Below are positions 4,622 through 7,826 of a stretch of DNA of 9,523 nucleotides, piece after piece (position 1 is the stretch's first letter; each line of letters opens with the position of its first letter). Source of the DNA: Bacteroidota bacterium (GTDB lineage Bacteria > Bacteroidota > Bacteroidia > Chitinophagales > Chitinophagaceae); the NCBI GenBank assembly GCA_023390215.1, contig JAEWDG010000174.1, forward strand, positions 1 to 9,523, given 5' to 3'. A model generated the notes under the pieces. That model made no database searches. It saw only the letters and a list, made by a program, of their open reading frames with translations, and was not told the DNA's origin. The position numbers and the translations under genes are program-made.

Positions 4622-5722
4622 TTATTCCCATCTGAAAACTTTTACTGCAATGGCGTATACTACAATTCCCCACACTGCGAGGATTCCGAGTTGTTTACCG
4701 CAGTTATATATATGTGCGCCCTCAAACGATATTTTACGCAGGGCATCATTCAACGCGGTAAGCGGCAAAGCTTCAACGAGCCAGTGTATACTTTTGGGCA
4801 ATGCTGATTTAGAAAAAAAAGTTCCCGATAAAAAATATTGGGGGAACATGAAAAGGTTGGAATAAATAGGAATAACATTCTGATTTTTTGCAACACTGCT
4901 TACCACAAATCCAGCACCCATAAATACGATCAATCCAAAAATCGTTACAATCAGCATTTCGATGAAAGTGATATAACCATGCGCCAGCGTGAAACCATAT
5001 AAATATTTTCCAAAAACTATAAGCACGATAACAGTGATGATCTGAAATATTATACGCGAAAGCGTTTCGCCAACAATGATATTCAACCTGTTTACCGGCG
5101 AGGCATAAAGCCTTTTTAAAACAAGTGTTTCCCGAAGGTTAAAAAATAAAAATGATACTCCGAATACCGCGGCGCCGATCATCGAGAACCCGATCATACC
5201 CGGCAAATAAAAATCGATCAGTTTATATTCCCGGCCTTCTACTTCTTCATTACTGATGGTCGCAATTGTGTATTCGCGCGGCTCCATCCTGTTGTCTATT
5301 TCGCTGGCAACATTGCGTAACAGTGTATTCAATGCAGGCAGTTCGCGCTGACTTGCCGAACTGGATTGTACATGAATATTATACAGCGCTTTCTTTGAAC
5401 TGTCCTTGTTTTTTTCAATAAGCAACAACGCTGTTAATCTGCCTTTTTTCATCTTGTCCTCCAGTGTATCATGGCTACTCTTTTCGACGCCAATGATGGG
5501 TGAAGACATCAGTGTTTTATAGATCGCGTTGGAAGTATCACTTTTAGGATCAAGTCCCACATCCATACTGATTCCGCCACCCCCACTTAACGCACCAAAG
5601 ATCCAGATGAGGATGATCGGAAAAAATACGCCGAAAAAAACGGATTGCGGACTGCGAAAAATAGAAATCAGGCTTGCTTTTGTAATGGCCCAAAGCGCTT
5701 TTGCCTGGCTGTAAGGTCTCAT
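4622..5722 (-). CDS. ABC-2 type transporter permease
   Basis: The 366-residue product has the layout of ABC2_membrane_3 permeases (YhfL/YbhR-like exporters). One membrane helix lies at about 28-46 (VFFGVFFPIILIWIFGAL), then a soluble extracytoplasmic domain at about 50-170. Five further hydrophobic segments lie at about 172-195, 225-245, 252-275, 284-304 and 344-362. The cytoplasmic loop RETLVLKRLYASPVNR (197-212) is the typical E-x-G-T-LK-R-x-x-x-S/TP coupling-helix region. The substrate is unknown; relatives export drugs, lipids or polysaccharide precursors. The ATG at 5722 is chosen because an excellent -7 box (TAGTTTTG) sits 15 bases upstream; an in-frame start at 5794 would run through that promoter and into the divergent operator. 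No ATP-binding partner is encoded in the window. The next gene is the SRPBCC protein, one base downstream. It is divergent from the antitoxin gene, with 79 bp between starts. Confidence 0.88.
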   Translation of the reverse strand: MRPYSQAKALWAITKASLISIFRSPQSVFFGVFFPIILIWIFGALSGGGGISMDVGLDPKSDTSNAIYKTLMSSPIIGVEKSSHDTLEDKMKKGRLTALLLIEKNKDSSKKALYNIHVQSSSASQRELPALNTLLRNVASEIDNRMEPREYTIATISNEEVEGREYKLIDFYLPGMIGFSMIGAAVFGVSFLFFNLRETLVLKRLYASPVNRLNIIVGETLSRIIFQIITVIVLIVFGKYLYGFTLAHGYITFIEMLIVTIFGLIVFMGAGFVVSSVAKNQNVIPIYSNLFMFPQYFLSGTFFSKSALPKSIHWLVEALPLTALNDALRKISFEGAHIYNCGKQLGILAVWGIVVYAIAVKVFRWE

Positions 5723-5737: not shown

Positions 5738-5745
5738 CAAAACTA
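5738..5745 (-). promoter_or_regulatory. -7 box (TAGTTTTG) of the permease gene
   Basis: On the minus strand TAGTTTTG is a full match to the Bacteroidota -7 consensus TAnnTTTG, ending 15 bases before the permease ATG at 5722. The nearest TTG for a -33 element (5761-5759) is only 13 bases away, shorter than usual. Where a normally spaced -33 region would fall (about 5763-5771), the DNA directly adjoins the left palindrome of the antitoxin operator. Confidence 0.5.
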
Positions 5746-5761
5746 ACATATTTGGAATCAA

Positions 5762-5793
5762 TTTTGGCAGGCCGGACATTTGTCGTAATTTCA
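5762..5793 (+). promoter_or_regulatory. Toxin-antitoxin promoter (-33 TTTTG, -7 TAATTTCA)
   Basis: TTTTG at 5762-5766 is followed after 19 bases by TAATTTCA at 5786-5793. This fits the Bacteroidota pattern of TTTG/TTG, 17-23 bases, then TAnnTTTG; the -7 box differs at its last two positions. Transcription would start at about 5798-5801, making the message from the ATG at 5802 nearly leaderless. One palindromic operator half lies between the two boxes and the other immediately downstream. Confidence 0.5.
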
Positions 5794-5806
5794 CGCGACA
5801 TATGTC
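5775..5806. promoter_or_regulatory. Paired palindromic operator for the Xre-RES operon
   Basis: GACATTTGTC (5775-5784) and GACATATGTC (5797-5806) differ at a single base. The second is a perfect 10-bp palindrome. Their spacing is 22 bp, about two helical turns, so two dimers would bind the same DNA face. The outer arms also form a larger inverted repeat, ACATTTGTCG and CGACATATGT around ten central bases. The left site lies between the -33 and -7 boxes, and the right site covers the predicted transcription start and the antitoxin ATG (5802-5804). This is the geometry expected for a helix-turn-helix antitoxin repressing its own operon. Binding itself is inferred. Confidence 0.65.
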
Positions 5807-6224
5807 AGCTTCCCGTTCAAACAGGTCTTCCGGCTCCTCAGGTAGAAAAATCAGCCCAAAGCCGCCACGTATGCCTGAGCTCCGTGATTTCGATTACGCG
5901 GAATTCAGAAAAACCGCAGACAAAGTTCCTTTTACGCTCGGAGAATGGGCCTCCATTCTTCACCTCAGTGAACGTACGCTTCAACGTTATGCCCAGAGCA
6001 ATGCATCCTTTGCTCCTATTCATGCGGAAAGATTTCACCAGGTGGAACAGTTGATTGCCCTTGGAAAGAAACTTTTCGGAAAGACTTCAGCATTCAGTGA
6101 CTGGTTGCATGCAAACCCTCCCGCGCTCGAAGGAAACCTGAGTATGCAATCACTGGAGAGTTTTGACGGGATCCGCCAGGTGAGAGAACAACTGGAAAGA
6201 ATTCAACAAGGTTTACTCGCATGA
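5802..6224 (+). CDS. Xre/MbcA/ParS-type antitoxin of a RES toxin system
   Basis: The 140-residue product is the predicted antitoxin of a type II module. It should bind and block the RES toxin encoded next and repress the shared promoter. Residues 1-23 are a Ser/Arg/Pro-rich, probably disordered tail. Residues 44-64 (FTLGEWASILHLSERTLQRY region) form the Xre-like helix-turn-helix. Residues 76-140 fit the DUF2384 toxin-binding domain, with the helical AERFHQVEQLIALGKKLFG and the closing LESFDGIRQVREQLERIQQG typical of the family. The ATG at 5802 lies inside the right operator palindrome, just after a promoter, giving a leaderless message. The ATG at 5871 (residue 24) would drop the disordered tail and remains a real alternative. 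The stop overlaps the toxin start as ATGA (6221-6224), so the two are translationally coupled with antitoxin first. Confidence 0.88.
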   Translation: MSASRSNRSSGSSGRKISPKPPRMPELRDFDYAEFRKTADKVPFTLGEWASILHLSERTLQRYAQSNASFAPIHAERFHQVEQLIALGKKLFGKTSAFSDWLHANPPALEGNLSMQSLESFDGIRQVREQLERIQQGLLA

Positions 6225-6682
6225 GGATCTACAGGCTTGCGCGGGCCAGTTTTGCTGAAGATTTAAGCGGAACGGGAGCCAGGCTGGTGGGTGGCCGCTG
6301 GAATTCGCCGGGAAGAAACGCACTTTATGCCGCAAGTCATATTTCTTTGTCTGTACTCGAACTGCTGGTACATATCAGAACAATCAAAATTCCGCCCGAT
6401 TTTCAACTGGTACATTTGGAAATACCCGAGTCGCTGAGTTCGGGCTTCACTGAAACACCAAAACTTAAACGCAATTGGAAGGACGACCTTGGTTATACCC
6501 GGAAGATCGGTGATGAATTTTTGAAGCAAAAAGACTTTCTTTTGCTGAGGGTTCCATCCGCGATCGTGGAGACGGAATACAACTATGTGCTGAATTGTCA
6601 GCATGCTGATTACAAAAAAATTAAGATCGCTTCGGTAATACCTTTTGAATTCGATAAGAGACTTTATGATCCGCTTTCATAA
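6221..6682 (+). CDS. RES-domain toxin, predicted NAD+-degrading
   Basis: The 153-residue product is a complete RES-domain protein. Characterised relatives (Pseudomonas putida RES, Mycobacterium MbcT) deplete cellular NAD+ by hydrolysis or phosphorolysis, stopping growth until the antitoxin binds. The family landmarks are present: YRLARASFAEDLSGTGARL at the start, GGRWNSPG with Arg26, LYAASHISLSVLELLVH with Tyr36 and Glu47, and VPSAIVETEYNYVLNCQHADY with Ser113. Arg, Glu and Ser are the residues that name the family, so the protein is probably active. The usual NxLLNPxHP motif reads NYVLNCQHAD here, with Cys126 in place of proline. The start overlaps the antitoxin stop by four bases. The 3' end overlaps folK by 17 bases, which is unusual for an accessory module. 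No frameshift or truncation was seen. Confidence 0.9.
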   Translation: MRIYRLARASFAEDLSGTGARLVGGRWNSPGRNALYAASHISLSVLELLVHIRTIKIPPDFQLVHLEIPESLSSGFTETPKLKRNWKDDLGYTRKIGDEFLKQKDFLLLRVPSAIVETEYNYVLNCQHADYKKIKIASVIPFEFDKRLYDPLS

Positions 6683-7154
6683 GATCTATATTCTCCTGGG
6701 CAGTAATATGCAGGAACCCGCACAACAATTAGTGCGGGCGGAAAAAATGATCACTGCTTCCGTCGGCAGGATTATTAAATCATCTTCCTTATATAAAACC
6801 GCAGCCTGGGGAATTAGGGATCAGCCTGATTTTATAAACCAGGTCATCGAAGTGGAAACTGGTCACCCGGCAGGCGAATGCATGGACATATTACTTAACA
6901 TCGAGGCGGAAATGGGAAGGGTGAGAACGGTGAAGAATGCGCCGAGAGTGATCGACCTGGATATTCTATATTACGACAATGCTGAGATCCATACCGAAAG
7001 GCTTATCATCCCACATCCTGCCATAGCCCAAAGAAGGTTCGTCCTGGTGCCTCTTAATGAAATTGCACCGGATTTTATTCATCCTGTGTACAAAATCTCA
7101 AATGCGCAGTTGTTAGCGCAGTGCAACGACACACTGGATGTGAAAAAATTCTGA
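6666..7154 (+). CDS. folK: 2-amino-4-hydroxy-6-hydroxymethyldihydropteridine pyrophosphokinase FolK
   Basis: FolK transfers pyrophosphate from ATP to 6-hydroxymethyl-7,8-dihydropterin, the step before dihydropteroate synthase in folate synthesis. The 162-residue product shows the family motifs in order: YILLGSNM (8-15), the pterin-binding Y43-x5-W49 and DFINQV (55-60), AEMGRVR (81-87), and the signature KNAPRVIDLDILYYD with magnesium-binding Asp97 and Asp99. IPHPAIAQRRFVLVPLNEIAP (115-135) closes the core. The ATG at 6666 is the first ATG in frame and sits inside the toxin gene, overlapping its end by 17 bases; an in-frame TTG at 6645 would overlap more and add nothing recognisable. No promoter was seen within the toxin gene, so folK may depend on read-through from the toxin-antitoxin promoter or on an internal promoter that I could not identify. 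A deoxynucleoside kinase gene follows after 39 bases. Confidence 0.95.
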   Translation: MIRFHKIYILLGSNMQEPAQQLVRAEKMITASVGRIIKSSSLYKTAAWGIRDQPDFINQVIEVETGHPAGECMDILLNIEAEMGRVRTVKNAPRVIDLDILYYDNAEIHTERLIIPHPAIAQRRFVLVPLNEIAPDFIHPVYKISNAQLLAQCNDTLDVKKF

Positions 7155-7193: not shown

Positions 7194-7826
7194 ATGAAAT
7201 ATCATTTCGTTACGATTGAGGGAAATATTGGCGCAGGGAAAACAACGCTGGCTCATTTGCTGAGCAAACATTTCAAGGCCAGACTGGTACTTGAAGAATT
7301 TGCGGACAACCCGTTTCTACCCAAGTTTTACGAAAATCCACAGCAATATGCCTTTCCGCTGGAATTATTCTTCATGGCCGAAAGGTATAAGCAGTTAAAG
7401 GAACTGTTACAAACCAAAGACATGTTCCAAACAGTGACGATATCCGATTATCTTTTCACCAAATGCCTGCTGTTTGCAAAAGTGAATTTACTGGAAGAGG
7501 AATTCAGGCTATATCAAAAACTATTCGATATCATTAACCCACAAATCGTTCAACCAGATCTGCTTATTTACCTCCATTCACCCGTCTCCAAACTCCAGGA
7601 AAATATCCGCAAACGAAACCGGAGTTATGAACAGTCCATTCCAAACGACTATTTGTTTTCCTTACAGGAAACCTATACCGCATATATAAAACAACATAAC
7701 ATTAAAACACTGTTCATTGATACGAGCAATGCTGATTTTCTCGGAAATGAGGCGCACCTGCAGGTTATCATCGACGCACTGGATATGGAATATCCTGAAG
7801 GCCAACATTATCTGACGCTGCCTTAG
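7194..7826 (+). CDS. Deoxynucleoside kinase family protein
   Basis: The 210-residue product belongs to the dNK/dCK/dGK family of cytosolic salvage kinases, which phosphorylate deoxynucleosides to monophosphates with ATP. The P-loop GNIGAGKT is at residues 10-17. The substrate region EEFADNPFLPKFYENPQQYAF (34-54) with Glu34/Glu35 matches deoxyadenosine/deoxyguanosine kinases (family pattern E..DNP(Y/F)L..FY). PDLLIYLHSP (121-130) precedes the LID stretch RKRNRSYEQ (139-147). Where relatives carry the DRS or ERS motif, this protein reads SDYLF (84-88), so an arginine usually involved in substrate phosphate handling is missing. I recall this form from other Bacteroidota, so it is probably a subfamily trait rather than damage. 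The specific nucleoside cannot be predicted. folK lies 39 bases upstream and the MFS gene starts 22 bases downstream, on the same strand. Confidence 0.88.
   Translation: MKYHFVTIEGNIGAGKTTLAHLLSKHFKARLVLEEFADNPFLPKFYENPQQYAFPLELFFMAERYKQLKELLQTKDMFQTVTISDYLFTKCLLFAKVNLLEEEFRLYQKLFDIINPQIVQPDLLIYLHSPVSKLQENIRKRNRSYEQSIPNDYLFSLQETYTAYIKQHNIKTLFIDTSNADFLGNEAHLQVIIDALDMEYPEGQHYLTLP

Follow-up and report, generated by a model that had tools for sequence, protein, structure and literature searches.

A conserved pair of palindromes as the likely operator of a RES-Xre toxin-antitoxin locus upstream of folK in Chitinophagaceae

How a chromosomal toxin-antitoxin pair might be switched, and which neighbouring genes might be switched with it, is the question raised by two near-identical palindromes in the promoter region of an xre-res locus from a member of the Chitinophagaceae. 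We analysed the whole stretch of 9,523 nucleotides, called the window here, together with related loci. The reading that we favour, and that we consider probable, is that the palindromes are the operator of the RES-Xre pair, that a 4:2 antitoxin-toxin hexamer would grip both of them and hide the core of the promoter, and that the supply of folK would be set in part by the same switch.

Architecture of the locus and its promoter

The features on which the argument turns are the following.

4622-5722, minus strand: ABC-2 permease (PF12698, PF01061), divergent; the gap upstream of it holds the putative operator
5738-5745, minus strand: -7 box of the divergent permease, TAGTTTTG, 6/6 positions, 29 bp from palindrome 1
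5763-5766, plus strand: -33 box, TTTG, with a 19-bp spacer before the -7 box
5775-5784, no strand: palindrome 1 of the putative operator, GACATTTGTC, with 4-bp arms GACA/TGTC and an unmatched central TT
5786-5793, plus strand: -7 box, TAATTTCA, 4/6 positions of the TAnnTTTG consensus
5797, plus strand: predicted transcription start, placed from the -7 box and uncertain by 1-2 nt
5797-5806, no strand: palindrome 2 of the putative operator, GACATATGTC, perfect
5802-6224, plus strand: xre antitoxin, 140 aa, with an Xre-like helix-turn-helix (HTH) and an Xre/MbcA/ParS C-terminal toxin-binding domain
6221-6682, plus strand: res toxin, RES domain, 153 aa, overlapping xre by 4 nt
6666-7154, plus strand: folK (HPPK; PF01288), its start overlapping the end of res by 17 nt (6666-6682), with predicted co-transcription
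7194-7826, plus strand: deoxynucleoside-kinase-like gene downstream of folK, which from its sequence we take to be a dNK

The two proteins carry the traits of a RES-Xre (ParT-ParS/MbcT-MbcA) type II system, namely a RES toxin, Xre antitoxin domains and an overlapping two-gene operon with the antitoxin first. In systems of this type the toxin consumes NAD and the antitoxin neutralises it. The toxin scores 86.6 bits with PF08808 and 160.3 with NF049844 (cut-off 110); the antitoxin lies above the cut-off of PF09722 (28.0 bits, cut-off 24.5) and just under those of the HTH profile PF20432 (22.9, cut-off 25.8) and of NF049845 (88.8, cut-off 90). Relatives of the window proteins in the PDB are 6d0h, 6d0i, 9r35, 6gw6 and 8gug, and a search for RES in phages gave no match.

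The starts of GACATTTGTC and GACATATGTC are 22 bp apart, or about two helical turns, and the two sequences differ at one base; the original prediction had described them with correct coordinates and sequences. Its description of both as palindromes holds in full for GACATATGTC and in part for GACATTTGTC, whose reverse complement, GACAAATGTC, matches it in the outer four pairs and leaves the central pair unmatched. The larger inverted repeat with a ten-base gap that had been described as well was located with arms at 5776-5785 and 5796-5805, ten bases between them and 9/10 positions complementary. When the whole window was searched for GACATWTGTC with at most one mismatch, four matches were returned, every one at the two palindromes; shuffled windows held a mean of 1.31 near matches and reached four in 11 of 200 shuffles, so that the window taken alone is only suggestive. 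A repeat finder (seed 6, minimum length 8) run on the window did not pair the two palindromes.

A scan for sigma-70 promoters found none, as expected for Bacteroidota, in which the sigma-ABfr consensus is TAnnTTTG at -7 and TTTG at -33 (PMC7366714). Candidate boxes of this kind are placed as had been claimed, with the palindromes on either side of the -7 box, the first lying between the -33 and -7 boxes and the second over the predicted transcription start and the ATG (5802-5804). Because the -7 box is taken to be centred at -7, the predicted transcription start is placed at or near the first base of palindrome 2; palindrome 1 would then cover approximately -22 to -13 and palindrome 2 approximately +1 to +10, and a protein sitting on both would cover the promoter core.

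Conservation of the pair in close and distant loci

A similarity search with the antitoxin returned 104 homologues, 34 of which were aligned with the window antitoxin to give a 35-sequence alignment; a scan of genome contigs with the single antitoxin sequence found no relative, and the alignment was needed. The relatives considered here are the best 80 of 389 loci encoding an antitoxin relative, chosen by protein and not by promoter, and counts out of 81 refer to these best 80 together with the window. A RES gene follows in 79 of the best 80; the remaining locus, L067, stops inside the antitoxin gene. Eight duplicate loci were removed (225 to 217), and locus L114, with its short upstream region, was left out of the spacing score.

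The original prediction had proposed aligning the promoters of related RES-Xre loci to look for palindrome pairs, and this comparison bears it out: with all spacings of 14-34 allowed, 80/80 of the best 80 of 389 have a GACA..TGTC pair that matches at least 13 of 16 positions. The best spacing is 22 in 48 of them, 21 in 31 and 32 in one, and when the spacing is restricted to 21 or 22 the window and all of the best 80 still score at least 13. The shuffles of the window alone had left some room for the view that the palindromes are a chance arrangement, since 11 of 200 equalled its near-match number; only 0.6% of 1600 shuffles, however, score at least 13 over the spacings 14-34, against 80/80 of the best 80 of 389 relatives. 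We reject the reading of a chance arrangement, the probability of which we regard as negligible.

The promoter core keeps its place relative to the palindromes. Among the best 80 of 389 and the window, a -7 box is recognisable at 5-6 of 6 positions in 68/81 loci, and in 68/68 of these its first base lies 11 bp downstream of that of palindrome 1, offsets of 8-21 having been allowed; TAATTTCA of the window, at only 4/6, has the same 11-bp offset. A TTTG occurs within 30 nt before the -7 box in 40/81 loci of this set, 18 of them with a 19-bp gap, the commonest one, and in none of the other 41/81; nine loci, the window included, were scored on a TTTG inside palindrome 1.

The start codon follows another pattern. 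It had been proposed to be embedded in the operator, and an ATG does fall within palindrome 2 in the window; as a conserved design the proposal fails. Across the best 80 of 389 and the window, 58/81 loci have their first in-frame ATG at 14-17 nt, counted from the first base of palindrome 2, which is 4-7 nt past its end; this ATG is at 5 nt, and hence inside the palindrome, in 17/81 and farther away in 6/81. Thirteen of the 17 loci with an operator ATG have a second ATG at 14 or 17 nt, and the operator ATG is the sole near start in only 4/81 of the same set (the window, where the next ATG is at 74, and loci L029, L066 and L074). Only a minority of loci embed the start codon in the operator, and the trait lies outside the conserved design of the family. 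For the window itself the embedded start codon is likely, with a predicted leader of about 5 nt between +1 and the ATG. The nearly leaderless translation and the tight repression of the original prediction are expectations drawn from this predicted start of transcription. Homologues that are 82-83% identical (P0002, and P0001 with an annotated extension) share the MSAS start and have Leu at the position of the window's next Met; in P0003, a 99% identical homologue, the annotated start is that next ATG (Met). The annotated N-terminal extensions of P0001, P0004, P0023 and P0082 resemble translated operator, for example PDICRNFMRQMSAS in P0001 and MTFVVN in P0004, and the annotated starts of these four are probably misannotated.

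More distant loci were drawn from genomes of the phylum and the family, giving 136 further loci, all with RES, whose median ungapped antitoxin identity to the window is 19%, compared with 48% for the best 80; only five of the 136 reach at least 40% (ungapped). It should be noted that the whole-genome loci consist of the top-scoring ones and of a further 80 chosen from match lists, and that they are not a random draw. A consensus-free score was applied that looks for two alike palindromes at a spacing of 12-40, likeness being part of the score. It returned 42 strong pairs in the 136 loci, 29.1 of them at 21/22 bp, against 13 pairs and 1.0 at 21/22 bp in a coding control. Among 48 representatives below 50% identity, 12 of 16 strong pairs are at 21/22 bp (control, 1 of 5; shuffles, 1.5 of 21), and with three-base centres also allowed a strong pair is found in 52/136 loci, 28.2 of them at 21/22 bp (control, 16/136, with 1.0 at 21-23 bp). 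By a strict score a twin at 20-23 bp is present in 36/136, with 2.95 in shuffles and 1 in the coding control; no twin is found by this score in the other 100/136, so the excess is large, yet no proof of universality.

Plasmids carry the arrangement as well. Fourteen plasmid loci were picked by hand for diversity among 101 matches listed, a choice that passed over, among others, every record from Klebsiella, Citrobacter, Escherichia, Salmonella and Burkholderia, and six more were picked from 20 matches. Counted without L245 and L251-L256, and with the gene start guessed in L247 (an unannotated record), they comprise 11 loci from Pseudomonadota, one from Nitrospirota and one from Spirosoma, and a twin at 21-23 bp is found in 9/13 of them, compared with 0 in the coding control and 0/65 in shuffles; the Spirosoma locus (L250) has no twin. 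The twin of a Methylophaga plasmid reads GCCATATGGC-gcTATAATatag-GCCAGATGGC and that of a Stutzerimonas plasmid GGCATATGCC-gcTTATAATgc-GGCAAACGCC, and a TATAAT lies between the two sites in L237, L242 and L243.

Some of the twins in the further loci carry half-sites other than GACA. Read from the list, GACA goes mostly with a QRY recognition helix, GCCA with RTL[ASTQ]RR or RTFTRR, GAAA with RT[IV][SQ]N[YR] or KTLNNY, GGCA with RTL[ST]HRR or KTLKSR, and GCAA, in one locus, with TTYNKK. Half-site and recognition helix thus seem to vary together from group to group, at an unchanged spacing. The pairs of L128, L129, L159 and L168 in the same list are probably noise.

These comparisons also bear on whether a single palindrome does the work, the other being a weak accessory or a by-product of the sequence preference of the promoter. 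One strong site is what the P. putida study found (PMC12204516), and the right arms are less well kept at some positions: the T of TGTC at position 9 is A in 21/81 loci at site 1 and 36/81 at site 2 among the best 80 of 389 and the window. The GACA bases, however, are each kept in at least 76/81 loci of this set at both sites, a count made at the best match and therefore flattering, and in the distant loci alike palindromes with other half-sites are paired far more often than in the controls, likeness having been scored. We consider a single working site quite improbable and take it as very likely, from position and conservation, that the two palindromes together are the operator of the RES-Xre pair.

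A wider regulon was considered as well. In 195 genomes, exact GACA pairs with a gap of 2-30 occur in seven, compared with nine for a backwards control; exact pairs are thus no commoner than the control, and a wider regulon is unsupported. Exact pairs at 21/22 bp occur twice in the 195 genomes (G312 and G367), both times upstream of xre. An exact pair at 23 bp (G473, L225) has no RES nearby, G467 holds near-identical copies at 12 bp in four places and G384 a tandem array at 20 bp; no RES match was found at L226, L230 and L232-L236 in G467 and G384.

Candidate repressors of the xre-res promoter

The closest known counterpart is the Xre-RES system of P. putida (PMC12204516; PDB 6gw6, 9r35), which resembles the present locus in its homologous proteins, in a promoter inverted repeat and in the arginine of the recognition helix; autoregulation is known there and predicted here. 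Arg67 of P. putida, which is needed for repression (PMC12204516), aligns with the conserved Arg of RTLQRY in the antitoxin alignment. There a 4:2 hexamer binds one imperfect repeat, and a second site about 20 bp away for the other Xre dimer is a prediction (iPTM 0.6; PMC12204516). In sequence, the conserved 21/22-bp pair here is the arrangement that the P. putida model predicts for its two Xre dimers; the proteins are homologous and the Arg aligns. In contrast to P. putida, where one imperfect repeat (S4) is bound and the second site is predicted (PMC12204516), the present loci have near-identical palindromes conserved at 21/22 bp, a Bacteroidota -7 box and another half-site. Closer in sequence to the P. 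putida Xre are an Azotobacter locus (L252), with GGTAAATGCC and GGTAAATACC 21 bp apart, and pWW53 (L251), in which the program found no strong pair and a pair was read by eye.

Building on these parallels, we propose that a 4:2 Xre-RES hexamer would grip both palindromes together, with one Xre dimer on each and both on the same face of the helix, and that in doing so it would hide the promoter core and shut off the xre-res promoter. With declining antitoxin, Xre subunits would leave the hexamer, which would then release the DNA, and the promoter would reopen, as proposed for P. putida. The spacing would then be a constraint set by the hexamer, and the half-sites would be free to drift with the recognition helix. 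Multi-site operators are also known from HipBA and Phd-Doc, in which toxin-antitoxin complexes bridge repeated palindromes; their toxins are unrelated and their half-sites are other ones.

The original prediction had the Xre antitoxin repress its own promoter through the twin operator. The operator part of that claim is borne out by the conservation described above; as to the repressor, the 4:2 antitoxin-toxin complex is more likely than the antitoxin alone. Isolated P. putida Xre is a monomer that represses weakly and the 2:2 form does not bind (PMC12204516), whereas 4:2 complexes bind the promoter in P. putida and in P. aeruginosa, where both genes contribute to repression (PMC11535050). Further relatives include the RES toxin pairs NatR-NatT (PMC11535050) and PA14_51020-51010 (PMC8065639) of P. 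aeruginosa, in which autorepression and, for NatR-NatT, 4:2 promoter binding are known; NatR-NatT differs in that switching proceeds via a toxin dimer and a Flap domain (PMC11535050). The VPA0770-VPA0769 pair of Vibrio parahaemolyticus (PDB 8gug), also reported as a 4:2 form (PMC12204516), and ParS-ParT (PDB 6d0h) are sequence relatives of both proteins.

The main alternative is that two separate Xre dimers, and not one hexamer, bind the palindromes cooperatively, each making contacts with its neighbour. A fixed spacing on the same face suits side-by-side dimers as well. A caveat attaches to one antitoxin studied as a fusion with GST, which itself dimerises. In that case, which sets PA14_51020-51010 apart, the GST-fused PA14 antitoxin alone gave a promoter shift (PMC8065639), so the toxin may be dispensable, and one P. 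putida hexamer bound just a single copy of the 30-bp S4 DNA (PMC12204516). The monomeric state and weak repression of isolated P. putida Xre and the non-binding 2:2 complex, on the other hand, speak against separate dimers, as does the derepression of the P. aeruginosa operon upon deletion of the toxin (PMC11535050). The four plasmid xre genes without an adjoining RES gene (L253-L256) lack twin palindromes and point the same way, as a small and anecdotal sample with little upstream DNA at L255 and L256. On this evidence we judge separate dimers to be unlikely, if a serious contender, and retain the bridging hexamer as the preferred reading.

Within the open-licence full-text literature, PMC12204516 is the sole paper in which we found a RES-Xre operator analysed at the level of its sequence; no paper listed named family-wide twin operators or tied res to folK, folK itself lying outside these searches. 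The terms "inverted repeat" and "operator" are absent from the available parts of PMC11535050, PMC8065639 and PMC12457610.

The permease, folK and a possible wider role

The gap that holds the palindromes also holds a perfect -7 box for the divergent permease. The permease diverges from xre within 900 nt in 68/80 of the best 80 of 389 relatives, which would suit palindromes that serve the permease, or another regulator, instead of xre-res. Among 30 folK loci taken, with about 1.5 kb on each side, from a family sample of 60 genomes, xre-res lies directly before folK in two (L283, and L280, the genome of L003), and in three (L261, L266 and L278) the permease adjoins folK without xre-res. These three empty sites keep the permease and have no GACA pair at 21/22 bp, scoring 8-10/16, so the operator accompanies xre-res and not the site; nor is there an annotated permease beside the twin-bearing plasmid loci (L247 being unannotated). 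An operator belonging to the permease is thus rejected as very improbable, although the complex on the xre-res operator may also touch permease expression.

Downstream, the gene order of this clade suggests a folK-dNK operon with xre-res in the leading position. A folK match is present in 62/80 of the best 80 of 389 loci and lies on the same strand within 600 nt after res in 45/80; in all but one of those 45 (44) the predicted folK start falls between -32 and +15 nt relative to the stop codon of the toxin gene; a dNK-similar gene is found in 59/80 of the best 80. The folK gene is single-copy in 28/28 genomes of these loci, in 23 of which it adjoins res. In the other five, the Sediminibacterium-like loci L040, L043, L044, L046 and L060, the coordinates place folK downstream at a distance of about 2.7 kb from xre, so that there is intervening DNA after res. 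The family sample of 60 genomes gave one folK match in 59 and none in one.

With xre-res at the head of the operon, expression of the single-copy folate gene folK would depend in part on this same switch. Perfect -7 boxes within the end of res in 10/43 loci, against 2.8 expected (43 of the 45 res-folK loci, L005 and L045 having been left out), leave room for a separate folK promoter there; the window has a box at 5/6 positions. Perfect -7 boxes for folK are found in two of the three empty sites, and reverse-strand -7 boxes in all three.

A broader hypothesis, which we offer tentatively and consider doubtful as a whole, is that RES-Xre systems share a family-wide ruler, in which palindromes 21-23 bp apart flank the promoter core at a distance set by the hexamer while the half-sites follow the recognition helix (GACA with QRY, GCCA with RR, GAAA with N[YR], GGCA with HRR or KSR, and GCAA with NKK in one locus). 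The toxin-antitoxin pair of this clade would have been inserted between the ABC permease and folK and have taken over the promoter of the folate operon, and the complex of an NAD-consuming toxin would have become a repressor of folate and deoxynucleotide supply.

In the P. putida structure paper it was undecided whether the promoter offers a site to the second dimer of the hexamer (PMC12204516), and for the present clade the conserved pair at two helical turns answers that question at the level of sequence. The window and its relatives supply two-site DNA for binding and structural work, and the natural variation among half-sites offers material from which to derive a recognition code. Should folK be transcribed from this promoter as well, the toxin-antitoxin module would have been turned into a housekeeping regulator, which would bear on why chromosomal toxin-antitoxin pairs persist.
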